Origin: a virus | Length of the DNA stretch: 64,000 nucleotides | Direction: 5' to 3' (one strand) | Virus record (IMG/VR): IMGVR_UViG_3300010334_000029 | Span: 62,001-126,000 of that record | Part shown: positions 8,427 through 63,295 of the stretch, one piece after another | How the letters are laid out: every line of letters begins with the position of its first letter | Position numbering within the stretch: the stretch's first letter is position 1 | The notes under the pieces: generated by a model | Database searches by the model: none | What the model saw: the letters and a program-made list of their open reading frames with translations, nothing else | What the model was told of the DNA's origin: nothing | Program-made: the position numbers and the translations under genes

Positions 8427-9002
8427 TTAGTGATGGCCCAGCGCGACCTTGGTGTGCCATTCACCACCAATCTTTCGTTGATAGAAATGTTTCTTCAACT
8501 CTGGGTGGCGCTTAACTTCTGGATCATCATGTGGTGCCGGACGAATTTCATCATCTGGCAAATGTTTACGTACTTGATCATGAGTCAAAGCATGCTGTGT
8601 AAGATCACCATGAACTTTCTTATGAAAAGAAAGTGACGGACCAGAGGTTTCAACAAAAGCACGTCTAGACGACAGATCATTCTTGACGATATGCTTTAGA
8701 CCTTTCTTACCCTGACCAGTGTTATCAGTTGCAACGGCAACACGTTTTGTCTTACCATTCTTGACTTTATAAAGACCAACAGCTCTTACCTTGCCTTCAT
8801 GATCTTTGTGAAGCTTCCAGATTGGAATATTCTTAACCATATCGTGATGGTCTTTAAAGCCGGAGCCGTGAATACCACCAATCGATTTATAAGCATGTTG
8901 AACCATATTGTAGACATGTTCAGCATGTTTCTTTTTTTCTTCTTCATGTTCTGGATGAAGGATTGAAAAACCTTCAGCTAAAAAGTCTTTAAAGTTAATC
9001 AT
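8427..9002 (-). CDS. Head protein with capsid-targeting N-terminus (191 aa)
   Basis: Starts MINFKDFLAEG, very close to the T4 internal-protein capsid-targeting sequence and ending in Leu-Ala-Glu, a site of the type cut by the T4 gp21 prohead protease. The rest is His/Lys-rich (GSGFKDHHDMVKNIPIWKLH) and ends with KVALGHH, a composition shared with the packaged proteins at 47-59 kb. The ATG overlaps the TGA of the esterase gene; both are probably late (TATAAATA at 9584). Injected function unknown. Confidence 0.75.
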   Translation of the reverse strand: MINFKDFLAEGFSILHPEHEEEKKKHAEHVYNMVQHAYKSIGGIHGSGFKDHHDMVKNIPIWKLHKDHEGKVRAVGLYKVKNGKTKRVAVATDNTGQGKKGLKHIVKNDLSSRRAFVETSGPSLSFHKKVHGDLTQHALTHDQVRKHLPDDEIRPAPHDDPEVKRHPELKKHFYQRKIGGEWHTKVALGHH

Positions 9003-44658: not shown

Positions 44659-44907
44659 TTATTTTAAATTACCACGAGATAAAGCGCCAGTAGCTAATCT
44701 TCTTGCAAGGTTTAATGAATTAAGATCATTACCTGCATTTAGAATACCTAAAGCTGCAATAAGCATTAATAAAGAACGTGTATCTGTTTTATCTGTACTT
44801 GCAAATCGGAAGAAATTTGATGAAATTAAAGCTAGTAGTGACTTCTTAGTTTCTGTTGGATCATTTAGATCTTCCGCTTCACTAATAAAGTCTTTAAACT
44901 GCTTCAT
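44659..44907 (-). CDS. Capsid-targeted small protein (82 aa)
   Basis: Start at 44907 after GAGGG: MKQFKDFISEAED, matching the T4-type capsid-targeting peptide with a predicted cut after Ile-Ser-Glu. Then hydrophobic LLALISSNFFRFAST and SLLMLIAALGILNAGNDL. Late box TATAAATA 30 bases upstream. Probably an internal or membrane-active head protein. Confidence 0.75.
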   Translation of the reverse strand: MKQFKDFISEAEDLNDPTETKKSLLALISSNFFRFASTDKTDTRSLLMLIAALGILNAGNDLNSLNLARRLATGALSRGNLK

Positions 44908-49278: not shown

Positions 49279-49716
49279 TTAACGTTTAAGTGTTGAGCGA
49301 AGTTTCCATTGTTGCTTTTCATATACTTCAAGCAGACCTTCTAGGAAGTTAACAAGCCCATATTGATTGAGTTCATCTGCTATAATATGACACTGAATGA
49401 GTGAAGCATGAACTTTCAGATTATCTTGTGAAATCCGATTAATCATTTCCCAAGCTTCAGGAACAATTGTCTCATCTTGAATACTTGTGAGTGCAAGAAA
49501 CCTACCAAGTGAACCGGGTGCATATGCATTAAGAGCACGAATATGTTCTGCAATATCATCTACATTTTCATCTGCAGTAGTGTATAGTTCTTCAAATAGA
49601 CTATGATATTGTGGAAAATTAGGTCCTTCAACATTCCAGTGATAGTACTGTGACTTAATACGAAATGCCGAAACATCCGCTAGTAGTCTTTTCATAGCTT
49701 CAATTAATTTATCCAT
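49279..49716 (-). CDS. dps: Dps/ferritin-like protein
   Basis: Start at 49716 (MDKLIEAMKRLLADVSAFRI). SQYYHWNVEGPNFPQYHSLF carries the His/Asp ferroxidase-type ligands of Dps, EELYTTADENVDDIAEHIRA the second. Four-helix ferritin fold. Placed directly after the 1538-residue polyprotein (8-base overlap); may protect packaged or injected DNA, or be a head component. Function here unproven. Confidence 0.85.
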   Translation of the reverse strand: MDKLIEAMKRLLADVSAFRIKSQYYHWNVEGPNFPQYHSLFEELYTTADENVDDIAEHIRALNAYAPGSLGRFLALTSIQDETIVPEAWEMINRISQDNLKVHASLIQCHIIADELNQYGLVNFLEGLLEVYEKQQWKLRSTLKR

Positions 49717-52700
49717 TATTAGGGTCTCCAATTTGTTGATCTGTATCACCATTATGGACGTTGCCACTTCTGATGATTTTACGTCCTAGTTTACGAAGTA
49801 CTGTTTTGGCTGGAATAACATTGCCATAAGCATCCATATGTGCTGGAACTACTACTGGTGCCTTTTCGGCGGATACAACATCCTCTTCAATTTGATCAAG
49901 GACTGATGGATGATATGCAAAACCACCTTGCATTTTCATACCTAAATCAGCAGCAGTATAGGTCTGACCAATACCAGCAGCAAAAGCAATATTAAATGCT
50001 TCATCTAGTTTCTGACCTGGTGTTGACTTCTTGTATGTCTTTACCAATGAGTCAGTACCGATTAGTCTTGATGTTGGTTTATCGGATTCATCAAGCTTTT
50101 CGTGATGGTTCACACCAAGAACAGCACCAAGTCTTTTCATACTATCCATATACTTAGCCTGTGATGCTTTACGCTTTTCTGGATCCCATCCTGACTTATC
50201 ACCAGTATAGTTTGCCATATTGTCAGCATATTTTACCATTTGCGCATGTTTATCACCACTTCTAATGATGCGTTCAATATTGTCTCTATAAGATAATTTC
50301 TTATCCTTCGAGAGAAGTTTGACAGCATTAATTACTTCAGGTGTAAAGCCTTTTGCTTTTAGATCCTCAGGCGTGTGTGGAGTATCCTCAAGAGTGTCAT
50401 GTAGAAGTGCTACCTTCTTAGTTGCAGGTCCGAATCTTCTTGTTCCAAATACTCTTTTACCAATATTCATTACCTTTTTAGGGTGGTATGAATACGGAAG
50501 ATCACCATACATCTGACCTTGTTCTTTATCATGCCATCTAGAAATTAACTTTTTGGTTTGGCGTTTTGTTGGATTTACAGCTTCATCTAGTAATTCTCCA
50601 AACTCAACTCCATGTTCAAGAAAGAAATCTAATTCTTCAGAACTAAAGTCAAACTCATCAATAATTTTCTTCTTGATTTGTTGCTGCTTGAACATATCAG
50701 AAGCAGGATTTTTAGGGGGCGCTGCATCATTACTTGGGGTTTGTGGAGTAAGATCTCGTTCTACATTCTGAGTCTTTTTACGTGGTGTTTCACCTCTAGA
50801 TACAGCAATAGGTCTATCGTCATCCTCATGAAGATCTTTATCGGCACCGCCATATGTTCCCTTACCATGAGCAATATAAGAGTTCACGCGAGCCATACCC
50901 CACTGCTGAGGTGTTGTCCCAGGGCGATGACCTGAATTCCAAGCAGCCACACCACGGCGATAAACTTTCTTTAGTGTACCAAGTGAAATACCTGACTTTT
51001 TAGCTTTATCAGCTAGAGCATCTTCATCAAGATTTTCTATGCTCTCACCGAACTTAGCATGGTATGCTTTTGTGTATTTTGACTGTGGGATACCTTTTTC
51101 TCTGATACGCTTATCTCCAGGCATATCTTTATAAGCATCTGGATCCCTATCGGAAAGTTTATTATTTCTTTCAATATGTGCTTTTTTTGCTTTTATTTCA
51201 GCAGGAGTGAGACCTTTGGTATAACTTTTAGGTAGTGTTGATTCTGAAAGATATGATTCAAGATCTTCCTTGAGACCACTCTTTTTGTGCATTACAATGT
51301 ATGTATATTTCTTTTTATCAAGATCTTCTAATTCTGCATCATGTGCGGCACGATCTTTGGATTTTGGAGCAGTAAGTTTACGATCTGCTTTGACCGTATT
51401 TACTTCCTTATTATCTCTATCTATGTATTCTTCATCATCAGATGGCTTCATGTGAAATGTTGTCTTGCTGATAGGATCATATCCATGAATATGAATGCCT
51501 TTATGCTTTCCAACTTTTGCCCATACACTTCTAGCACCTGGTGACTGGTCATTAGATGAGATAATCTTGTTGTGCTTTGTCACAAGGTGCTGGTAGAGAT
51601 GATGTGCACCAAGTGATTTGTCATTAGCAGTTAGAACACTAACTTCTTCAGCACCAGGAGCCGCCTGCTGCTTGGTTGTAAGGTGAATGTTGATTCGCTT
51701 GGTCTTTGGGTCTACTACATGATAGTCATGCATTTTATCTTTTGGATCATAACTATGATAAACATGATGTCCATTTTCTAGTGTGCCAATATGCTTAGTA
51801 CCTTCAATAGTAGAGATATGTTTACCTAGATCTTTACCGCCAAACTTTTCAGTCTTTTTAAATGAACTTAACAGAACCTCATCAAGTTCTACTTCTTCGT
51901 TCTGGTGCTTGAAGTATTGAACTTGCTTTTCACGTTTCTCAGCACCCTCCTTAGTAGGATAAGTACCTAGATTCTTACCAGATGATTTAGAAACTAGACG
52001 GTAACCGCTCTTGACCTTGACTATATGTTCATCTACTGATTCTATTTCCTCATTGGTCTTGTCCATAATTTTGGACTTCTTGAGCACATCAAGAATTAAA
52101 GGTGCCTTAAGCTTGTTATGCCTAGGAACTGCTAGACGGTGTGTAGACTTTGGATGTGTGAATACATCATGGTCGCCGCTTCCACCACTTGCCTTCTTCT
52201 GCCATCCTTTATTTGTAATGTGTGAGACCAGAGCACGGCGATCCATATTCGCTCCGGCCATTTCATCTAAAAAATCTGATTGTACTCCCTCAGAAAGACC
52301 AGCATGTAATTCAGCTGCTTTCTTAAAAGGAAGACCAAAGTGCTTGACATGACCATGCTTGTTCATAGCTTTCCATGAATTTTGCTTTGTCTGACCTTTT
52401 TCAAAATATGCTTTTACATATGGCGTATTCTTTGATTCTTCAAAGTCTACTGATTCCTGAGCAGCTTTTAAATCAGAATTAGATGGTGCTCCTTCCGAAC
52501 CTGGTTTACGCATACGTTCACCCGAACCAGCTTTGATTCTTTTTTGCTTAGCATGAATGTTATCCCACAGACCTCTTTTTTCTTCAAGATTTTCTTCTTT
52601 TACAACTTTATCAACTGTAAAGTGCTTGTAATAAGGATGCTTCTTCATCTGATATTCAGCATTTTCTCGATCAATAGCAGAAAGCTTAACTGTTCCATGA

Positions 52701-54325
52701 CTACGACCATTCTTGCTTACATGAGCAGTAAATTTACCTTCAGTTACTTCTACTTCTTCATTCTTACTACCGTAGTTAACATGAAGATGAGATTGCTTAT
52801 AATCTTTAGTAATAGCAGAATGAGGTGCTTTATAAATTCCATGACCAGTATCTAAATGAACATGAGTAGGTGTAACTTTTTTTACTTTACCAGTATGTGG
52901 GGAATTAGCGTGTACTTTTGTTTTGAGATAAACTTTGTCACCTACCTTAGCTGGAGCTTCATCTTCTTGAAGCTCTACTTCTTCATTTGTAGCCTTAATT
53001 TTCACATCAGGTACTGGACGTCTTTTATATTTTAGTCCAAGTTTACCTTTAGCAATACCCTGAGACTCCATTGATTTTCTAAATGATAGTGGTGTTGGAT
53101 ATTGTTTTCCACCTTCTTTAGTTTTAGCTAGGTACGATTTAAGTGTTGACTTTGAAAGTTCGTGCAAATCAGCATCTTCATTAAAGTATGTTCTACCCTG
53201 ATTGATATATGAGTTTACACGAGCAAATGCGTACTGCTGTTGTGATACTGAGCAATCCTCGTTCCAAGCTTCAAGCCCACGATTATAGACTTCACCAAGA
53301 ATCTCTAGATCAAGATTAGTAGCATCAGCCTTTTTAATAAGAGCTTTAAAAACAGGACTATCAACTTCTAGATCTTCACCGAACTTGCCATATTGGACAA
53401 TGGGAGATCCTTTAGTCTTTGTGCCACCTTTGGCGTTACCCTGAGAATCACCTTTAGTATTTGATTTAGCAATCTTGCGACCGCTAGAATTAATTGGACT
53501 ATCTGAACGCTCACCTGTGGATCCACTATTACCTGGTGCGGAATCACCAAAGTATTCTAGGAACAGGTTATTTAAAGATTCTGACACGTGATTTCCTTCC
53601 GGTGCTCCATGGTTAGCCATTTGCTGTCCATGCATATAAGATTGAAGTCGGGCATATTCAGCCTTCTTGACTTTTGGAATTAGACGCATTGCTAATTTCT
53701 TGATAGCAGGTCCTTTCTTTTCGATAACTCGGTCAATTGCCATCTTTTCAGATGGGCCCATCTTAGCATATTCAGCTTGTGAAACATTAGTAAGTCTGCT
53801 ACGAACAAGTTGTCTTGCCATTGCATATGAACGCTTCTTGATATTTGCTTCAGGCGCCACTTTTTTCTTAGCTCGTTCTCTGGCAATTTCAATTCTTGGT
53901 TCATTTCTACGCATTTCAATAGCACGCTTTTGACGTTGCTGAATGTTTAAAATATTTTCATCTAGGTTTACTTCTTCATTCTTTTGTTTTGCTTTAAATG
54001 TCTGATGTTCTTTAGACATTCGTTGAAGTGCCACTTTAGGATTAGAGTGACCCATATAAACAAAAGTACCCATTTCATGAGACCTTGGGCCATGATTACC
54101 ATTGAAATCGAACGAATAACTAGTAATATTTTTTCGACTTGATACTATTCTAGAACCAGGTTTTTTCTTATCAAGATATGAACTATATGGCTTTATTTTA
54201 CCAATAATTTGTCCATTATGATGAACTTCATAAGTTGCTTTACCTTCTGGGTGAGCAATAGTTTTTTCTAGTCCGGTCTTTTTTAATTTGTAATCACCTT
54301 CAGTAATTTCGTTTATTTTGTCCAT
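49709..54325 (-). CDS. Giant modular head polyprotein (1538 aa)
   Basis: Domains: 1-120 capsid-targeting-like start (MDKINEITE|GDYKL); 120-245 basic helical repeats; 320-400 DUF5824-like (QYAFARVNSYI); 450-520 KOW-like; 580-615 KRGLWDNIHAKQKRIKAGS; 700-752 HicA-like (GDHDVFTHPKSTHRLAVPRH); 765-810 YRLVSKSSGKNLGTY; 1030-1100; 1105-1150 second DUF5824-like; 1250-1400 MESH1/SpoT-like HD (HDTLEDT at 1309-1315, KYADNMAN). Recurring NEEV-x-(L/V)-x-E linkers at 117, 447, 522, 758 and 809 match head protease sites. Probably cut into separate packaged proteins. Confidence 0.8.
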   Translation of the reverse strand: MDKINEITEGDYKLKKTGLEKTIAHPEGKATYEVHHNGQIIGKIKPYSSYLDKKKPGSRIVSSRKNITSYSFDFNGNHGPRSHEMGTFVYMGHSNPKVALQRMSKEHQTFKAKQKNEEVNLDENILNIQQRQKRAIEMRRNEPRIEIARERAKKKVAPEANIKKRSYAMARQLVRSRLTNVSQAEYAKMGPSEKMAIDRVIEKKGPAIKKLAMRLIPKVKKAEYARLQSYMHGQQMANHGAPEGNHVSESLNNLFLEYFGDSAPGNSGSTGERSDSPINSSGRKIAKSNTKGDSQGNAKGGTKTKGSPIVQYGKFGEDLEVDSPVFKALIKKADATNLDLEILGEVYNRGLEAWNEDCSVSQQQYAFARVNSYINQGRTYFNEDADLHELSKSTLKSYLAKTKEGGKQYPTPLSFRKSMESQGIAKGKLGLKYKRRPVPDVKIKATNEEVELQEDEAPAKVGDKVYLKTKVHANSPHTGKVKKVTPTHVHLDTGHGIYKAPHSAITKDYKQSHLHVNYGSKNEEVEVTEGKFTAHVSKNGRSHGTVKLSAIDRENAEYQMKKHPYYKHFTVDKVVKEENLEEKRGLWDNIHAKQKRIKAGSGERMRKPGSEGAPSNSDLKAAQESVDFEESKNTPYVKAYFEKGQTKQNSWKAMNKHGHVKHFGLPFKKAAELHAGLSEGVQSDFLDEMAGANMDRRALVSHITNKGWQKKASGGSGDHDVFTHPKSTHRLAVPRHNKLKAPLILDVLKKSKIMDKTNEEIESVDEHIVKVKSGYRLVSKSSGKNLGTYPTKEGAEKREKQVQYFKHQNEEVELDEVLLSSFKKTEKFGGKDLGKHISTIEGTKHIGTLENGHHVYHSYDPKDKMHDYHVVDPKTKRINIHLTTKQQAAPGAEEVSVLTANDKSLGAHHLYQHLVTKHNKIISSNDQSPGARSVWAKVGKHKGIHIHGYDPISKTTFHMKPSDDEEYIDRDNKEVNTVKADRKLTAPKSKDRAAHDAELEDLDKKKYTYIVMHKKSGLKEDLESYLSESTLPKSYTKGLTPAEIKAKKAHIERNNKLSDRDPDAYKDMPGDKRIREKGIPQSKYTKAYHAKFGESIENLDEDALADKAKKSGISLGTLKKVYRRGVAAWNSGHRPGTTPQQWGMARVNSYIAHGKGTYGGADKDLHEDDDRPIAVSRGETPRKKTQNVERDLTPQTPSNDAAPPKNPASDMFKQQQIKKKIIDEFDFSSEELDFFLEHGVEFGELLDEAVNPTKRQTKKLISRWHDKEQGQMYGDLPYSYHPKKVMNIGKRVFGTRRFGPATKKVALLHDTLEDTPHTPEDLKAKGFTPEVINAVKLLSKDKKLSYRDNIERIIRSGDKHAQMVKYADNMANYTGDKSGWDPEKRKASQAKYMDSMKRLGAVLGVNHHEKLDESDKPTSRLIGTDSLVKTYKKSTPGQKLDEAFNIAFAAGIGQTYTAADLGMKMQGGFAYHPSVLDQIEEDVVSAEKAPVVVPAHMDAYGNVIPAKTVLRKLGRKIIRSGNVHNGDTDQQIGDPNNG

Positions 54326-54563: not shown

Positions 54564-54857
54564 TTAACAGTTCCAACGCTTTAGTGATGCAGCCTTACGA
54601 GTTGGACGACCTTTTTCATCTTTCATTGGACCAGGCACACCACTCATACGAGCGCAGAATGACTTACGTCTTTTTGCTGCTTTACCATTTGGGTCTAGTT
54701 TACTTGGTGGTGTTGTAACAGCTGTTTTAACACCTGCAGCTTTAGCGCCTTTTCTAGTTAACCCAGCCCCATCTTCTGTGGATCTTTTATATCCTTTTGA
54801 ATCCTCACCTCGTTCTAATAAGATACATTCTAATATAAAAGCTTTTAATGTTTTCAT
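54564..54857 (-). CDS. Capsid-targeted DUF6321-like protein (97 aa)
   Basis: MKTLKAFILECILLERGED, capsid-targeting start with cut after Ile-Leu-Glu. The rest, GAGLTRKGAKAAGVKTAVTT, KAAKRRKSFCARMSGVPGPM and KGRPTRKAASLKRWNC, matches DUF6321, small basic phage proteins. Lies between late genes; probably an internal head protein. Confidence 0.78.
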   Translation of the reverse strand: MKTLKAFILECILLERGEDSKGYKRSTEDGAGLTRKGAKAAGVKTAVTTPPSKLDPNGKAAKRRKSFCARMSGVPGPMKDEKGRPTRKAASLKRWNC

Positions 54858-54858
54858 T

Positions 54859-55767
54859 TTATGCTAGTTCCTTAATAGTAAATGCAAACCATACGTCTAG
54901 TTTGGTTGAGTTATCAACACGTCTCATACACAAAGTAAGCATATTTGGAGTTCCACCGCCATGCATTGATTTTGGGCCTTCATCACCAGATGTATTCTTA
55001 CCAATAATGATACCACTGTGTCTCATTATTGAACCATTTGGAGTAAACGTGTTTCCTTGATTAGAAGAATATTTGTCTTGATATACACGATATTGACTGT
55101 GAACACCAAACGTAGTCCAAGCAGGTATAGCTGCTCCAGTTATTGTTAGATCACCTTCATACCACTCATACACAATAGTGCTTTGATTAGCGTTGTTGTT
55201 TCCAATTTCATATTCAATAATTTTTATTAAATCCGCAACACTTGCACTATTATTTCTAAAACTAACAACAGGACGCATAGTATCGTCCATAGTCCAACCA
55301 CGATTCGTGTTTATTGCATGATTATTAAAGGCATATAAATCACCCGCTTCTTGTGTTGTAATAACAGTAACAGTACTAGTAATATTTATATTACCAGAAG
55401 TTACAACAACATTCTGTGATGCAGGGAAGTTGCCTACGTTAACAATACCAGTAACATTTGCATTTAGATTGCCTGATGTAATTACTACATTACCACTAAT
55501 AGGCATATACGAAACTGTTAGAATACCACTATTACCAACTTCAGTAATATGGCTGTGTATTGGATTTTCAGGAGTACTAGACACCTGTACAGTTGTTCCA
55601 ACATTAACATTTCCAGTGATTGTAATATTATTGGAACCAAGTGTTACTGGGAACGGATTCACATTAGTAACTGGATCACCATTTACTGTAGCAATCATCC
55701 CCAATTCATATAGTGTCTTACTGTTCTGTTCAACTTTCTTCTGTTGGTCAATTCTCCATTGTGCCAT
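54859..55767 (-). CDS. Beta-rich virion structural protein (302 aa)
   Basis: Repetitive Gly/Asn/Thr-rich beta sequence (GSNNITITGNVNVGTTVQV; GNLNANVTGIVNVGNF) then a globular C-terminal part (VIEYEIGNNNANQST...LCMRRVDNSTKLDVWFAFTI). Typical of phage fibre or head-decoration proteins. No enzyme motif. Exact role unknown. Confidence 0.68.
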   Translation of the reverse strand: MAQWRIDQQKKVEQNSKTLYELGMIATVNGDPVTNVNPFPVTLGSNNITITGNVNVGTTVQVSSTPENPIHSHITEVGNSGILTVSYMPISGNVVITSGNLNANVTGIVNVGNFPASQNVVVTSGNINITSTVTVITTQEAGDLYAFNNHAINTNRGWTMDDTMRPVVSFRNNSASVADLIKIIEYEIGNNNANQSTIVYEWYEGDLTITGAAIPAWTTFGVHSQYRVYQDKYSSNQGNTFTPNGSIMRHSGIIIGKNTSGDEGPKSMHGGGTPNMLTLCMRRVDNSTKLDVWFAFTIKELA

Positions 55768-56024
55768 TATTTCTTACCTTTACCTACTTTCAAGATATTA
55801 TTTTTTGTGTCAGCAGTATTACTATCTTTAACATCACCAGTATTATTAGTGGTAGCATGCATAGCATTCACAGCGTCGCTAACACTAGTATCAGATGCAT
55901 TAAATGCGGCATAACTAGAAATAGTGCCACCAGGTACTCCAGTGACATTACCTAGACCTCTGATTCCACCACCAGTACTATTTGTTGGTAAACTTTCCTT
56001 AATCCACTGACAGAATGTTTTCAT
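55767..56024 (-). CDS. Capsid-targeted small protein (85 aa)
   Basis: Starts MKTFCQWIKESLP, capsid-targeting-like with cut after Ile-Lys-Glu. The remainder is Ser/Gly/Thr-rich (GGGIRGLGNVTGVPGGTISS) with no clear fold. Its start overlaps the end of the 608-residue protein by four bases. Confidence 0.72.
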   Translation of the reverse strand: MKTFCQWIKESLPTNSTGGGIRGLGNVTGVPGGTISSYAAFNASDTSVSDAVNAMHATTNNTGDVKDSNTADTKNNILKVGKGKK

Positions 56025-57847
56025 CTTTTTACCTTGATCTTGCCTGCCATTAAACCTACACGTGTTCGATCCATAAGACCTTTAACTTCCTTATCGGAGA
56101 AGTTAGGACCGACATGTTTCTTAAATGTATTTAGGTCGCCGGATTCCGCAGCAGTTCGCATCTTTGTACCTGATAGACCATGTGAACGATTTTCATCTTT
56201 TGGTAGATGAACATGAACTTCGTCAAACTTGTGACCTTGAAGCTCTGGAATCTTGCCATTCTCTACTGAGTGCTTAAGACCTTCCGCAAACTTCTGACGG
56301 TCATGCCCAAAGTGAAGATGAAGAACCTTTCTACCAGTAGCAGGCATACTCGCATGAGCCTTGGCAATTGTAACACCTGGTGACTTTACTGTTTGGAAAT
56401 CAACCTTACCACCTGACTGCTTGTTGGCAATATCTTCACGTTCCTTATCTGAGAATGCATCAGACTTACCAGATAGACCGATAAACTTCTTGCCGTGTGG
56501 TGCTGCTTCCATTGAACCGCCAATATCAGTATGGTGTCCCATGTGTGGGAATGGTGAAGCGCCTAGATATGAGACGTGGACGTGATGTGTTTCTTCCTCG
56601 TGAACAGGAACGCAGTTAGGAACTTCCTTGCCGTTCTTTTTCTTTTTGCCGATCATTTTATAACCTGTCCAGCAGGGATCATCTTTCATAGCTTCTTTTA
56701 CATAATCACGTGCACCATCTTTATCGTATAGATCTGATCTATTTCTCATACTACGTAAAGCTTTGGCTTCAATTTGTCTAGCATGTTCTCTATTTCTTAG
56801 ACCTAAAACATTAGCAGTCTGTTCTAATGTACGACCATGAATATATCTATGCTTTATTACATCTTTCTCATTCTTATCAGTTAAGCTATTAATAAGTCGA
56901 TGTGCTGCAAGTTTGCGACCTATGGTCGTTTCATGATTCTCACCAGGATCTTGTGCTTCTCTAGCTTCATTAACCGTATCAACCACACCGAGATGCTTAC
57001 GCATATGAGCAAGAGCAGGACCATGATCCATACCCTTCATTTTAGATACGGCACCCTTAAACTTATCGTAGATTGCCTGGTGCTGTTCTTTAGGGATGTG
57101 CTTCTTGATCAGTTGAGTTACACCATGGAATGAATGGATATTATTATGATCGGCATTAGCACCAAATAGCTTCTTGGTAACTTCATGTGGGTGTTGTACA
57201 CCAGGATCAGATTCATCAGTACGTGAGCGAAGACCGTGTGTAATTGAGAACTTATGAGTATCACCGGCAACCGCATTTAGAAGGATTTTGTGGTGAGCAC
57301 CTTTAATTCCTGCCTTTGTGTCTTCCCAGTTTGATCCATGTAAGAATCTCGAAGCTTCCGAACCTGGGTGATTTACACCTTGGAAATCAAACTGATGATG
57401 TTCACCATTCTCATGACGCATAACTGCAGAGATTTCATTACCATGCTTCTTGGTTCCGACAACTGTATACTTACCAAACTTTCTGCCTGGTGTAAGATGA
57501 GTAGCTAGTTTTTCTTTATGTTCTGGTGTCACCTGAGTGTCAACGTCACCAACCATTGGTTTATGCTTTGCAAATTCAGCATGTGATACGTGGTGACCCA
57601 TGAGATCGTGAGTAGAGCCGGTATATGCAGTAGCATCATGAAGGCGCTGATGATCCTGACCGAATAGATGCTCGCCGTGTTCCTTATGAAATGTGTCACC
57701 AATTGCTGTTAAAGCATGGTGAATGTCATGGCGGACCTGATGGCGAGTACCTGCAGTTACCGGAAATGCCGCAGCAGATGTTTCCTGACCTTTTGGTCCG
57801 ACACGGATGTTGCCACCCTCTAGAATAAACGCTTTAAATCTCTGCAT
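56021..57847 (-). CDS. Capsid-targeted protein with sigma region 4-like and nucleotidyltransferase domains (608 aa)
   Basis: Residues 1-10 MQRFKAFILE|G is a capsid-targeting start. 95-180 nucleotidyltransferase-like (MVGDVDTQV). 320-370 sigma-70 region 4.2-like: KDVIKHRYIHGRTLEQTANV then LRNREHARQIEAKALRSMRN, keeping the Arg-Glu...Arg-Gln contacts used by sigma on TTGACA. 385-415 DPCWTGYKMIGKKKKNGKEV, a common phage module. 420-600 cytidylyltransferase-like with HMGH (435-438) and SGTKMR (559-564). A regulator plus enzyme that may enter the cell with the DNA. Confidence 0.82.
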   Translation of the reverse strand: MQRFKAFILEGGNIRVGPKGQETSAAAFPVTAGTRHQVRHDIHHALTAIGDTFHKEHGEHLFGQDHQRLHDATAYTGSTHDLMGHHVSHAEFAKHKPMVGDVDTQVTPEHKEKLATHLTPGRKFGKYTVVGTKKHGNEISAVMRHENGEHHQFDFQGVNHPGSEASRFLHGSNWEDTKAGIKGAHHKILLNAVAGDTHKFSITHGLRSRTDESDPGVQHPHEVTKKLFGANADHNNIHSFHGVTQLIKKHIPKEQHQAIYDKFKGAVSKMKGMDHGPALAHMRKHLGVVDTVNEAREAQDPGENHETTIGRKLAAHRLINSLTDKNEKDVIKHRYIHGRTLEQTANVLGLRNREHARQIEAKALRSMRNRSDLYDKDGARDYVKEAMKDDPCWTGYKMIGKKKKNGKEVPNCVPVHEEETHHVHVSYLGASPFPHMGHHTDIGGSMEAAPHGKKFIGLSGKSDAFSDKEREDIANKQSGGKVDFQTVKSPGVTIAKAHASMPATGRKVLHLHFGHDRQKFAEGLKHSVENGKIPELQGHKFDEVHVHLPKDENRSHGLSGTKMRTAAESGDLNTFKKHVGPNFSDKEVKGLMDRTRVGLMAGKIKVKR

Positions 57848-58806
57848 TACTTGGCTCCGAATCTTGAACTTTTGGCTTTTGCTTCCTTGAAAGCAGGATT
57901 GATGGCTTTGAAGCGAGGTGCTTCTGGATTTGCAGCAGATGGATGAACAACAAGACCTTCGGTTCCAGAACCAAATTTATTCTTAATACCAAGTGATCCG
58001 AGGTGTCTGGTTACTTTATCACTAACTTTTTTCTTGACTGCATTAAACTTGTCAAGCTCTGCGGTCTTTGCTGCTTTATTTTTTGGTGTGGTTCGTGAAT
58101 TAATAAGCTCGTGATTGAGTCCATGAAACTCTTTTACTTCATCTGCAACATCAACATGACCTGGCTTGTGAGCAATCTTATCATCTTCAAAGTTAATATT
58201 AGAATCTGATAGATGTTTCTTGAAGTGCTCCGTATCATGCCCTTGATTTTCAGGTAGTCTTGAATGAATGACAAATGTACCTAAACCTCTTGGCTTCTTG
58301 TATGAAGTATGAACAAACTTGACTTCACCCTTCTTTGTGTCAGATGGGCGAGCAAGAGCATTATTAAATGCTTCACCCTTCACTACAACTTCGTTACCTG
58401 TGCGCTTATATTCTGATGCTAAATGAGCTTGTAATGCTTTATTCTTATGAAGAGCATCATGGAATTTAGCAAATGCTTCAGGTGCGGTAGGGTCATATGG
58501 CTTACCAGTTTCTTGTGCCCGGCGCTTGGCTCGATCAATATGACCTTGAGCTGTACGAATCTTTTCGTCACCAGATCCAGAGTGCTGAGTATAAAAGCCG
58601 TGTTCGTCATGACCCATCTTAAAAGTCTGACCATCGGTCTTTTCAGTTATATGGTGGATTAAAACTTTACCACCTTTTGTGAGATGATGGAACTGGTCGG
58701 TAGAAAGTGAAGGTGTGTCATTACCAGCAGCTGTTTTGGTGGAGTAGAGATGAGGAAGGCCTTGGCGAATTGAAGCCTCAGTAATGAAAGATTTAAAGCG
58801 TTGCAT
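57847..58806 (-). CDS. Capsid-targeted ligase-like (DUF6267) protein (319 aa)
   Basis: MQRFKSFITE|A capsid-targeting start. ITEKTDGQTFKMGHDEHG contains the KxDG motif of ligase/adenylating enzymes (Lys about residue 57); the C-terminal GTEGLVVHPSAANPEAPRF with FKAINPAFKEAK matches motifs IV and V. So an ATP-dependent ligase-like or adenylating protein carried in the head; DNA or RNA repair on entry is inference. Confidence 0.8.
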   Translation of the reverse strand: MQRFKSFITEASIRQGLPHLYSTKTAAGNDTPSLSTDQFHHLTKGGKVLIHHITEKTDGQTFKMGHDEHGFYTQHSGSGDEKIRTAQGHIDRAKRRAQETGKPYDPTAPEAFAKFHDALHKNKALQAHLASEYKRTGNEVVVKGEAFNNALARPSDTKKGEVKFVHTSYKKPRGLGTFVIHSRLPENQGHDTEHFKKHLSDSNINFEDDKIAHKPGHVDVADEVKEFHGLNHELINSRTTPKNKAAKTAELDKFNAVKKKVSDKVTRHLGSLGIKNKFGSGTEGLVVHPSAANPEAPRFKAINPAFKEAKAKSSRFGAK

Positions 58807-58961
58807 CAGTCACCACCTCCGCCAGATGAGCCAGACTTACCAGGTGGTAGATTTTTAATTGTTCCATCAGCCATTCTGATAGGCACATTCTTTACTTTTG
58901 TAGGCTTACCAGAAGCATCTCTAATGGACAGTTCTTCTTTAAATTCAGCAAATGTTTTCAT
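58806..58961 (-). CDS. Small capsid-targeted protein (51 aa)
   Basis: MKTFAEFKEELSIRDASGKP, start closely like the T4 internal-protein sequence, then a Lys/Pro/Gly tail (NLPPGKSGSSGGGGD). TGATG overlap with the ligase-like gene. Probably an internal head peptide. Confidence 0.66.
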   Translation of the reverse strand: MKTFAEFKEELSIRDASGKPTKVKNVPIRMADGTIKNLPPGKSGSSGGGGD

Positions 58962-59563
58962 CGTTTAATAACCTTGGTAGAGCCGTCTGGCTTCACAAAA
59001 TAAGCTTCAAACTTGACATGTGGATATTCATCTTCAAGATCCAGAAATGCAGTTAGATTACTCATTGCATCATCATATAGACGGAGTTTAGTATAATTTT
59101 TAGTATTTATATAACGACGAAATATAACCTTCTTGGCTTCAGCACTTGAATCAAGACCAAGATTACCAGCACGCTCGACGTGCATATCATCAATTGGAAT
59201 TCCATGATCACGGAACGTCTGAAGAAACATATGCTTGTCATCAAAGTCAGCACGGGCAGTACAGATAATAGCACGGCTGTGTGGATTGTTTTTAGCTTTG
59301 ACAACTGCCTTAGCCTTTTCAATCATCCGAACTACTGGGACCGAAGTTCTACGAAAAACTTCGGCGGATCGAAATTCGCCGAAGTCATAGGTTTCCCCAG
59401 GTTTACGCTCGTATGTGTTAAATTCTTGGTTATCTAATTTTCGTATGACTTTGCCGTCCTTAACCACACCGACTTTAGCCTTTGTATGGAAGAGGGTCTC
59501 ATCAATATCGAAGATTGTAAGTGTACCAGAACCTATAAACTCTTTGAATCTTTGTTTTACCAT
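58958..59563 (-). CDS. HAD-superfamily phosphatase with head-protein N-terminus (201 aa)
   Basis: MVKQRFKEFIGSG start, RFKEF-type targeting-like. HAD motifs: TLTIFDIDETLFH (Asp nucleophile pair), RAIICTARADF (Thr), VKAKN region (Lys) and LRLYDDAMSN (Asp pair). Resembles phage HAD phosphatases/Pnkp 3'-phosphatase-like enzymes. May dephosphorylate nucleic-acid ends or nucleotides. ATGA overlap with the 51-residue gene. Confidence 0.83.
   Translation of the reverse strand: MVKQRFKEFIGSGTLTIFDIDETLFHTKAKVGVVKDGKVIRKLDNQEFNTYERKPGETYDFGEFRSAEVFRRTSVPVVRMIEKAKAVVKAKNNPHSRAIICTARADFDDKHMFLQTFRDHGIPIDDMHVERAGNLGLDSSAEAKKVIFRRYINTKNYTKLRLYDDAMSNLTAFLDLEDEYPHVKFEAYFVKPDGSTKVIKR
59104..59111 (-). promoter_or_regulatory. 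Possible internal late promoter
   Basis: TATAAATA inside the HAD gene, 143 bases before the start of the small capsid-targeted gene. Confidence 0.4.
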
Positions 59564-60850: not shown

Positions 60851-61522
60851 CTAATAATGTTCTATATTTCCGTTCCCTGCCAAAACACCCCAACAATGAA
60901 TATTATTAAATTCTATCAATTTGTCTTTAGGTGTATTAAGAAAATGTGCGTGCTCTGTATCTAAACTATTTAGAACTTTCATATTATTGTCAATTACTTC
61001 CAAATAGTCATTAGTTAAGGACGAACAAAAAGAATACATTCTAGTAATAAGAAGATCAGTTATGTTAGCTGATGACATCCATGTAGGTATTCGCTTTTTA
61101 AATACATACTTACCATAAGTATTATCATAATCACTTAAATTGAAATGTTCAGTAAGCCATGATCTAGAAGAAAATTTAAAGATCCTTTTGCAGTCTTTAA
61201 AAAATATTTCTTCTTTCAATTTTGTTATTGCAGTATATAATAAAGAATTTTCTGCATGACTTTTTAAACCTTGTTTAGAATAATTAAATGTTCTCTCACA
61301 CATAGAAAGATCAATGAATAAGTCTACTTTAGATTCTAATTCCATTTTTTCTTTATCTGATAATGGAATAACCGAACAATCAGCCAAAACCAAGATTTCA
61401 TTTGGCAATTTTATTCTCAATTGAGTTAAACAGTCTATGGTCTGTTTATATCTTTGTTCGTGGGAAATCAAACCCATTAAAGGTTTAACTGAAGATGTTA
61501 TAATGAAACAATTTTTACTCAT
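60851..61522 (-). CDS. Putative glycosyltransferase-like protein (223 aa)
   Basis: MSKNCFIITSSVKPLMGLIS, then LVLADCSVIPLSDKEKMELE and SRSWLTEHFNLSDYDNTYGK. No decisive motif, but composition and place among sugar genes suggest a GT or sugar-binding role. AT-rich. Confidence 0.5.
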   Translation of the reverse strand: MSKNCFIITSSVKPLMGLISHEQRYKQTIDCLTQLRIKLPNEILVLADCSVIPLSDKEKMELESKVDLFIDLSMCERTFNYSKQGLKSHAENSLLYTAITKLKEEIFFKDCKRIFKFSSRSWLTEHFNLSDYDNTYGKYVFKKRIPTWMSSANITDLLITRMYSFCSSLTNDYLEVIDNNMKVLNSLDTEHAHFLNTPKDKLIEFNNIHCWGVLAGNGNIEHY

Positions 61523-62565
61523 AGATAATCACTCAATTCATCTTTATTTCTAGGAACGTTTATTGCTATTGCTCGTGGAAATGGATTACTTTTATTATAG
61601 TCATTAATAATAATTCTCTTACTATTCAATAGATTCATTATAAGTTGATAATTGATAAACCCTAGTTTATTTAGTAGTTCTCTAGTAACCTTTTCATATC
61701 CAATTTGTCTAGCCGTCGTAAAAATAAATTGAGCACCTGAATTCTGCAACTCCAATAGCCTATTTACATTATTTTGAAGTGCTATGGGTTCTGATTGAAA
61801 ATTATTCTTTCCAACTCTTGTCTGACTTACAATAATTGTTCCGTCAATATCACAAAAAATTACAGGCTTGTCATTATATTCAAACCAATCTGATGAAGTT
61901 CCCACATCTGTGTAATTTCTTATAAAGTTTTCAGAAAAAATATGACCATTAAATATACAGCGAGAAATCACATCCGAAACAAATACTTCATTTTGAGTTT
62001 GTAATTCTTCATAAGCCTCAATATAGTTATCAGAGTTTTCAAATGAATATCCACCAACACAAAACGTATTCGACACTACTTGCTTTTCTATAATGTCTGT
62101 GATTATATGTTGATCATTTGCTATTACAAAACTTTTAGAAGAAATTTTCTTGAGTACAGAATGGTCAGATATTCTTGATACACATACATAATTACCCTTG
62201 ATTATATTATGATCAAAGAAACTATCACAATCTTTAATTAAAATTTGAGTATTTCTAATATTTGCTTTTTTAAGTATTTGATAAACAGTATCTGCCGGGC
62301 CCTTGGTTGGCTCGTCTAAAATTATAATATTTATAGAATCTCCAAATTCATGCTTAAGAAACATGGTGGCATCATACTCATTATCATGTTCTTTAAGTAT
62401 TCCAATAGTGACAGGGATCTTTAAATCTAAATATGGTTTAATAGCGTTAGAAATCATCAAATTGTGCTTATAATCATATAACAGATATTTTGGTTTCATA
62501 CCAGGAAACCTTGTTGACAACCCAGCAGCTGGAACAATTACTTCCATATTATAAATTTTTGACAT
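61519..62565 (-). CDS. Sugar nucleotidyltransferase fused to HAD phosphatase (348 aa)
   Basis: Start taken at 62565, GAGG nine bases upstream. VIVPAAGLSTRFPGMKPKYL (1-30) is the nucleotidyltransferase loop; the C-terminal VIFCDIDGTIIVSQTRVGKN is a HAD domain. Combines NTP:sugar-1-phosphate transfer with phosphate removal, as in LPS precursor genes. AT-rich cluster, likely acquired. Confidence 0.8.
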   Translation of the reverse strand: MSKIYNMEVIVPAAGLSTRFPGMKPKYLLYDYKHNLMISNAIKPYLDLKIPVTIGILKEHDNEYDATMFLKHEFGDSINIIILDEPTKGPADTVYQILKKANIRNTQILIKDCDSFFDHNIIKGNYVCVSRISDHSVLKKISSKSFVIANDQHIITDIIEKQVVSNTFCVGGYSFENSDNYIEAYEELQTQNEVFVSDVISRCIFNGHIFSENFIRNYTDVGTSSDWFEYNDKPVIFCDIDGTIIVSQTRVGKNNFQSEPIALQNNVNRLLELQNSGAQFIFTTARQIGYEKVTRELLNKLGFINYQLIMNLLNSKRIIINDYNKSNPFPRAIAINVPRNKDELSDYL

Positions 62566-63295
62566 ATTTTCTAGCCTCATCATTAATATTTCTTGCTATC
62601 CGTTTAACTATATAAAATTTATCATTCTTCACTATAGATTTTATCTCATTTAAATCCACAGGGTTTAGATTCACTCTCCAATCAACTTGCCAATAGTTGT
62701 AATTTTTAAATTCTAATAAAGAATAATTTTTGAATAAAAGATATGCAACGTATAGAAATTCATCTGCGTGATATTCAACCTGTGTGTCTCTAAATTTATC
62801 AAAATATTCGATCATTTCAGTAAATATAGAATATTTAAAAAACATACCATCTGGATTGGATTGATATTTGAAATTGTTATTGAGTTTATCGTAATAAATC
62901 CTGAATATTTGATTATTACATAAACTTGATATACACCCTGAATCTATCTCACGTTCAAAGAAAGAAGCATCATAATTACGCATTAGCTCATATAGATTAG
63001 ATTTAACAAAAAGTTGATTTGTTGCTAATAAACAGACATATTCAGAATGTACATTATCTTTTTTAATTTGATCGTATAATTCTATATGTAATGGAATCAT
63101 AGTATCAAATTTTTTATATTGAACCTTTCTGTCTATTATACAAACTCTATCACTATTTAAATCATCCAGGTTTTCATTGGAACCATTATTAATATAGACG
63201 CAAATATTTGAATTAAATTTAAACAGATTAGAAATGGTATCTTCAAGACTTTCTTTATTTTCATGATGCGGTAATAAGAATATTATGTTATACAT
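62549..63295 (-). CDS. Putative glycosyltransferase (248 aa)
   Basis: Start MYNIIFLLPHHENKESLEDT at 63295. Short repeats of aromatic, Asn- and Tyr-rich sequence typical of surface-glycan enzymes; a DxD-like region around EREIDSGCIS is possible. Overlaps the nucleotidyltransferase gene. Acceptor unknown. Confidence 0.55.
   Translation of the reverse strand: MYNIIFLLPHHENKESLEDTISNLFKFNSNICVYINNGSNENLDDLNSDRVCIIDRKVQYKKFDTMIPLHIELYDQIKKDNVHSEYVCLLATNQLFVKSNLYELMRNYDASFFEREIDSGCISSLCNNQIFRIYYDKLNNNFKYQSNPDGMFFKYSIFTEMIEYFDKFRDTQVEYHADEFLYVAYLLFKNYSLLEFKNYNYWQVDWRVNLNPVDLNEIKSIVKNDKFYIVKRIARNINDEARKYVKNL

Follow-up and report, generated by a model that had tools for sequence, protein, structure and literature searches.

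To our knowledge, few proteins delivered from a phage head act on host transcription, the examples being T4 Alt and the virion RNA polymerases of the N4 and phiKZ types. The internal head proteins of bacteriophage T4 are ejected and act on the host, with Alt acting immediately on RNA polymerase (PMC9026906, PMC2988021). They carry a leader of roughly 10 residues, the capsid-targeting sequence (CTS), whose targeting depends on positions 4 and 7 and whose processing depends on positions 8 and 10; the protease gp21 cleaves after L/I-x-E, and T4 heads contain about 20–200 copies of CTS-fusion cargo (PMC9026906). A further group of proteins predicted to be packaged and injected, the polyvalent phage proteins, features Pol-beta nucleotidyltransferases and, rarely, HTH domains, and jump-starting of transcription has been proposed for them (Iyer et al. 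2017, PMC5512222); sigma is not mentioned in the main text of that paper. Minimal single-HTH sigma factors have been described in jumbo phages (PMC7824862), and T4 gp33, a mimic of sigma domain 4, exemplifies the use of the RNA polymerase flap by phages (PMC2988020). Proteins consisting of region 4 only are common in phages. No report of a sigma domain within a head-cargo protein was found in searches of an open literature library, an absence that is no proof of novelty.

The window, that is, the whole 64,000-base stretch of DNA analysed here, comprises bases 62001–126000 of a 141,838-base virus record that holds T4-like replication and nucleotide genes. It encodes a 608-aa protein in which a sigma domain lies between two enzyme-like domains behind a CTS-type leader. 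The features of this gene and its neighbours are as follows.

59104–59111, minus strand: TATAAATA, a T4-type late promoter sequence upstream of the predicted cargo string
58806–58961, minus strand: 51-aa ORF with a CTS-like start (MKTFAEFKEEL), which opens the predicted cargo gene string
57847–58806, minus strand: 319-aa protein with the CTS-type start MQRFKSFITE, the predicted cut preceding A
56021–57847, minus strand: ORF of 608 aa
57818–57847, minus strand: leader MQRFKAFILE of capsid-targeting type, aa 1–10, predicted cut between ILE and GGN (CTS rule, ORF enrichment, homologue ends)
56978–57817, minus strand: Pol-beta/lambda-type nucleotidyltransferase (NTase) domain, aa 11–290, GS...GDVD...FDF (AF2 model, Foldseek, invariant D101, D103, D154)
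56966–56974, minus strand: V-N-E site, aa 292–294, ahead of the sigma module
56693–56965, minus strand: inserted sigma domain 4 module, aa 295–385, 91 aa, 10.6 kDa, pI 9.6 (alignment with the closest relative, L002, and others; DNA junctions; composition)
56744–56875, minus strand: Sigma70_r4 Pfam match, aa 325–368 (Pfam, four-helix models, Foldseek)
56744–56791, minus strand: recognition helix, aa 353–368, with R353, E354, R357 and Q358 kept
56693–56701, minus strand: V-K-E site, aa 383–385, behind the sigma module
56591–56692, minus strand: CW module CWxGYxxxGxKKKNGKEVPNCVP, aa 386–419 (common to L002; widespread in other phages)
56021–56590, minus strand: CoaD/NadD-type adenylyltransferase domain, aa 420–608, plus stop (phrog_3041 cytidyltransferase; Foldseek CoaD prob 1.0, E 3e-3)
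55767–56024, minus strand: 85-aa protein with the CTS-type start MKTFCQWIKE
54564–54857, minus strand: 97-aa protein with the CTS-type start MKTLKAFILE and DUF6321

An AF2 model of the 608-aa protein, built with 25 homologues, reached a mean pLDDT of 84, the regions of low confidence being the leader (1–9) and the linkers 292–310 and 371–381. The NTase domain (aa 11–290; pLDDT about 95) is matched by Foldseek to DNA polymerase lambda/beta (prob 0.9–0.99, E about 0.01–0.06), and the CW module is modelled as a beta hairpin; over the domains, the Foldseek matches have only modest E-values (3e-3 to 0.08), with probabilities mostly of 0.9–1.0. A homologue of the NTase (YP_009168520) is encoded by Campylobacter phage IBB_35, for which 38 virion proteins have been listed (PMC3322345). 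The CW module is widespread in phage contigs (L123–L202), in several of which it stands directly behind a CTS-like leader. Like the polyvalent proteins (PMC5512222), the 608-aa protein joins several unrelated domains in one polypeptide, its packaging being predicted only; however, release is ascribed in that system to embedded zincin peptidases (PMC5512222) and here to a head protease, and the polyvalent hallmark domains (zincin peptidase, ART, ArdC-N) were not found in a Pfam scan. In contrast to T4 IPI–III and Alt, for which no sigma domain is described, it is a multi-domain protein with a sigma domain and a swappable linker, and an ADP-ribosyltransferase is not present.

The preliminary description of this DNA had placed a stretch resembling sigma region 4.2 at residues 323–370 (56738–56881), with the four −35-contacting residues of sigma-70 (Arg, Glu, Arg, Gln) kept, and both points were borne out. 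Pfam Sigma70_r4 (PF04545) matches residues 325–368 with E=6.1e-10 (38.9 bits vs a gathering cut-off of 24.1), the single such match in the whole 141.8-kb record, and the matches in a PDB sequence search are the primary sigma factors SigA/RpoD (best value 2e-5 for the segment). In an alignment with E. coli sigma70 and 51 viral region-4 sequences, R353, E354, R357, Q358 and K362 correspond to R584, E585, R588, Q589 and K593 of sigma70, the first four of which we take to be its −35 base contacts. The segment is modelled as four helices (pLDDT about 76–80) and, in the structure search against sigma region 4 that had been suggested, is paired by Foldseek with the sigma-4 chains 3hug and 3vep (prob 1.0, TM (target) 0.59–0.76); a first AF2 model was of low confidence, and its weak best matches served as support only. 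Chance similarity is ruled out by the Pfam E-value (6e-10), the four contact residues and the fold, and the segment is, with near certainty, a genuine homologue of sigma region 4. Similarity to sigma70 sets in within the D-P-E stretch (linker) that precedes region 4 and may continue as far as the last sigma helix (ARDYVKE vs LRSFLDD) and thus the sigma C-terminus; ARDYV resembles LRSFL of the flap-tip helix, but with a longer loop. As judged from sequence, the segment probably extends beyond region 4.2 and represents the whole of sigma domain 4 with a degenerate C-terminal flap-tip helix. One-residue insertions, N326 and R351 (HTH turn), are absent from 51 of the 51 aligned viral region-4 sequences, and H355 takes the place of R586, which is Arg in all 51 others; the turn insertion and the loss of R586 may alter DNA binding. 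Region 2, responsible for −10 and core binding, was not found in the 608-aa protein by Pfam, PDB search or Foldseek, the flanks being the NTase and CoaD-like domains. The minimal sigma factors and region-4-only proteins of phages possess the same domain and look like stand-alone regulators, whereas here it is embedded in a predicted cargo protein.

For comparison, 22 relatives were drawn from IMG/VR, and a wider set of 80 loci came from an alignment query. Full-length relatives possess both the NTase and the adenylyltransferase, while the sigma segment is present in none of the relatives examined (56–85% identical) and Sigma70_r4 in 0 of 20 relatives' contigs. Where the closest relative (L002) reads VNEA-MKNDPC, the present protein reads VNEA-[REAQ...DYVKEA]-MKDDPC; set against the junction without insert, the insert thus repeats V-x-E-A at both ends, and the sigma module has been inserted at a Val-x-Glu-Ala site that now borders it on both sides. 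Its GC3 is 13% vs about 33% in the flanks, and since values this low occur in 3% of genome windows, the module is an outlier within its gene and not unique in the genome. Other inserts occupy the same linker elsewhere: L064 has one Zn-ribbon-like piece, L048 and L003 have several pieces, and L002 has the CW module. On the strength of the aligned sequences, sigma domain 4 is a swappable module inserted in a linker. An assembly artefact is unlikely, given an in-frame insert with V-x-E-A repeated at its ends and flanks on both sides that match the relatives. Neither close relatives of the module nor its donor were found in viral contigs or in 84,980 prokaryote genomes by scans with short exact peptide patterns, by which divergent relatives can be missed, and the NTase/sigma-4/adenylyltransferase fusion is known from one example. 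A match to Synechococcus phage B23 proved by eye to be driven by the CW module, the remainder being a DUF5661-like HTH; sigma-4 is likewise absent from the Pfam matches of 43 scanned CW-module proteins.

The N-terminus MQRFKAFILE, cut before GGN according to prediction, obeys the T4 CTS rule, with Phe at positions 4 and 7, Ile at 8 and Glu at 10 as in T4 IPI–III and Alt, and the T4-type capsid-targeting peptide proposed earlier is consistent with this rule (PMC9026906). The pattern M..[FYWL]..[FWY][ILVM].E, which is partly post hoc because it was modelled on T4 and on the 608-aa protein, fits six of the record's ORFs of 60 aa or longer, where residue shuffles lead one to expect 0.19, and four of the six are clustered at 54.5–58.8 kb. 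The residue two before the cut is I, L, V, M or F in 66 of 66 E-GGN homologous loci (many of them near-duplicates); other homologues begin directly at Met-GGN, in agreement with the prediction of a removable leader, and thereby support its removal. Between domains, each of the 19 distinct linkers contains an [ILV]-x-E site, whereas 10.5 would be expected from shuffles that preserve linker composition (none of 2000 shuffles reached 19), and such sites are 10-fold denser in linkers than in domains; the sites bordering the sigma module are V-x-E, whereas those of T4 are L/I-x-E. TATAAATA is found 12 times in the record vs 5.8 expected, 11 of the 12 on the gene strand, and its occurrences include sites at 44.9, 59.1 and 9.6 kb that precede groups of CTS genes. 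No match to gp21 or gp23 was obtained in the record, from which T4-type head genes are missing and which is probably incomplete; a gp21-type prohead protease is present in 6 of 8 relatives' records. Given the leader, the predicted cut sites, the T4-type late promoter sequences and the T4-type prohead protease of the relatives, the 608-aa protein is predicted with good confidence to be head cargo, and the earlier claim of virion delivery is probably correct as far as packaging is concerned.

Among the neighbouring genes, the 319-aa protein has no family match in Pfam, PHROG or PDB searches and, by reading only, appears ligase-like; in L054 and L058 its homologue is fused to the NTase in a single ORF via an E-GGN site. 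Two more CTS-pattern proteins, again with no family match, are encoded at 44659–44907 and 8427–9002 of the window (minus strand), with TATAAATA just upstream of the former and before the gene pair containing the latter. A 1538-aa modular protein (49709–54325, minus strand; DUF5824, HicA-like, HD-like), whose pieces are linked by E-rich stretches of [ILV]-x-E type, resembles a polyprotein of small modules. HAD/polynucleotide-kinase-like proteins are encoded near the predicted cargo genes (58958–59563 and 61519–62583, minus strand) and may form a nucleic acid end-repair set with the NTase.

As an explanation of the whole, we tentatively favour, at slightly less than an even chance, a virion-delivered sigma-4 fragment that is cut free and contacts promoter DNA, the RNA polymerase flap or both. 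The course of events that we infer, from packaging through cleavage and ejection to DNA or polymerase binding, would begin with the CTS leader carrying the modular 608-aa protein into the prohead, where a gp21-type protease would take off the leader between ILE and GGN and would probably also cleave the inter-domain linkers between V-x-E and A. Cleavage would free a complete sigma domain 4 of ~10.6 kDa (aa 295–385), a release toward which we lean slightly. The peptide would then be ejected together with the phage DNA and, within the first minutes, bind DNA resembling a −35 element, the beta-flap of the host's RNA polymerase, or both, such that the use of host sigma70 would be perturbed before phage gene expression. 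In principle, both −35 DNA and the beta-flap are possible binding partners of a complete sigma domain 4. As a lone sigma-4 is without the parts for DNA opening and strong core binding, competition is simpler to envisage than activation: without regions 2–3, the free domain would be expected to vie for −35 DNA or the flap and not to bring in polymerase, and it should bind weakly. With 20–200 cargo copies, few in relation to cellular RNA polymerase, a stoichiometric takeover would be limited. Exploitation of the interface between flap and region 4 would be shared with T4 gp33 and AsiA (PMC2988020, PMC2988021), which are not head cargo and show no sequence similarity to the 608-aa protein.

Whether the module acts on transcription or serves as a passive DNA tether is nearly balanced, with transcription slightly the less favoured. 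The tether is the main rival to the favoured explanation, though in its full form we regard it as rather unlikely: sigma-4 would be a small basic DNA-binding domain that holds the cargo on the packaged genome or condenses it, promoter specificity being a leftover. It gains from the other small, nucleic-acid-binding-looking modules (Zn-ribbon-like) that occupy the same linker in L048 and L064, from the basic nature of every part of the protein (pI 8–9.7) and from the recurrence of HTH-like DUF5661 modules in similar proteins. Against a tether stand the retention of −35 base-specific residues beyond backbone contacts and the probable extension of the module to the sigma C-terminus. Quite unlikely is a cytoplasmic enzyme that is not cargo and in which the inserted HTH is regulatory or inert; it agrees with the absence of a protease gene from the record and with the existence of leaderless GGN core homologues (Va1), and is opposed by the CTS enrichment, the late promoter sequences, the predicted linker cut sites and the relatives' protease.

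Very unlikely, in turn, is the model of the preliminary description, in which a virion-delivered −35 reader activates the phage's own TTGACA early promoters. The record contains 30 TTGACATTTT promoter-like sites, 29 of them on the gene (minus) strand (in the window, for example, at 970, 5777 and 24654, minus strand), which are mostly accompanied by a conserved AAACTATAAGGAATGGAGAT leader; TTGACATTTTT is the sequence of the phage promoters. The usual −10 is TAGACT, with 4/6 matches to TATAAT, and an extended TGn is present at 15 of the 30 sites. With a perfect −35 and a frequent extended −10, these repeated promoters should be read by host sigma70 unaided. The 29 gene-strand promoters with weak −10 speak for activation, as does the precedent of T4 Alt, which is carried in the head and increases the activity of early promoters (PMC2988021). 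However, formation of a holoenzyme is impossible without regions 2–3, lone occupancy of the −35 would block sigma70, many of the promoters possess an extended −10 and the module is missing from relatives. The favouring of the phage's own early promoters finds no support in the present data. More improbable still is a decoy that titrates an anti-sigma factor, either an Rsd-type protein of the host or AsiA from a rival phage, without direct promoter or polymerase action. AsiA and Rsd do target region 4 (PMC2988021), but copy number is low, no partner was found and the protein resembles neither gp33 nor Srd, candidates for sigma decoys in T4 being represented by the latter.

A second candidate, which speaks for the favoured explanation, is found in an unrelated phage, L229 (1280–4387, plus strand; also in L260–L262): a 1035-aa multi-domain protein with Sigma70_r4 (E=1.6e-15) and TPR, whose gene immediately precedes that of a head maturation protease (phrog_18299, E=6.6e-15). 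No similarity to the 608-aa protein was seen outside the sigma-4 domain; if the L229 product is a virion protein, head proteins acquired sigma-4 on at least two occasions. The broader proposition that head-delivered, protease-released sigma-4 is a recurrent device by which phages capture host RNA polymerase at the flap/−35 step prior to expression, L229 being an independent case, is considered unlikely.

A sigma fragment as head cargo, if true, would give phages a means of contacting RNA polymerase at time zero that does not depend on enzymatic activity. Its small size, its self-contained nature and the predicted cut sites at either end make the module easy to test. The linker in which it resides looks like a general slot in which T4-like phages swap small effector modules, and the comparison of such linkers across phages could reveal further injected effectors.
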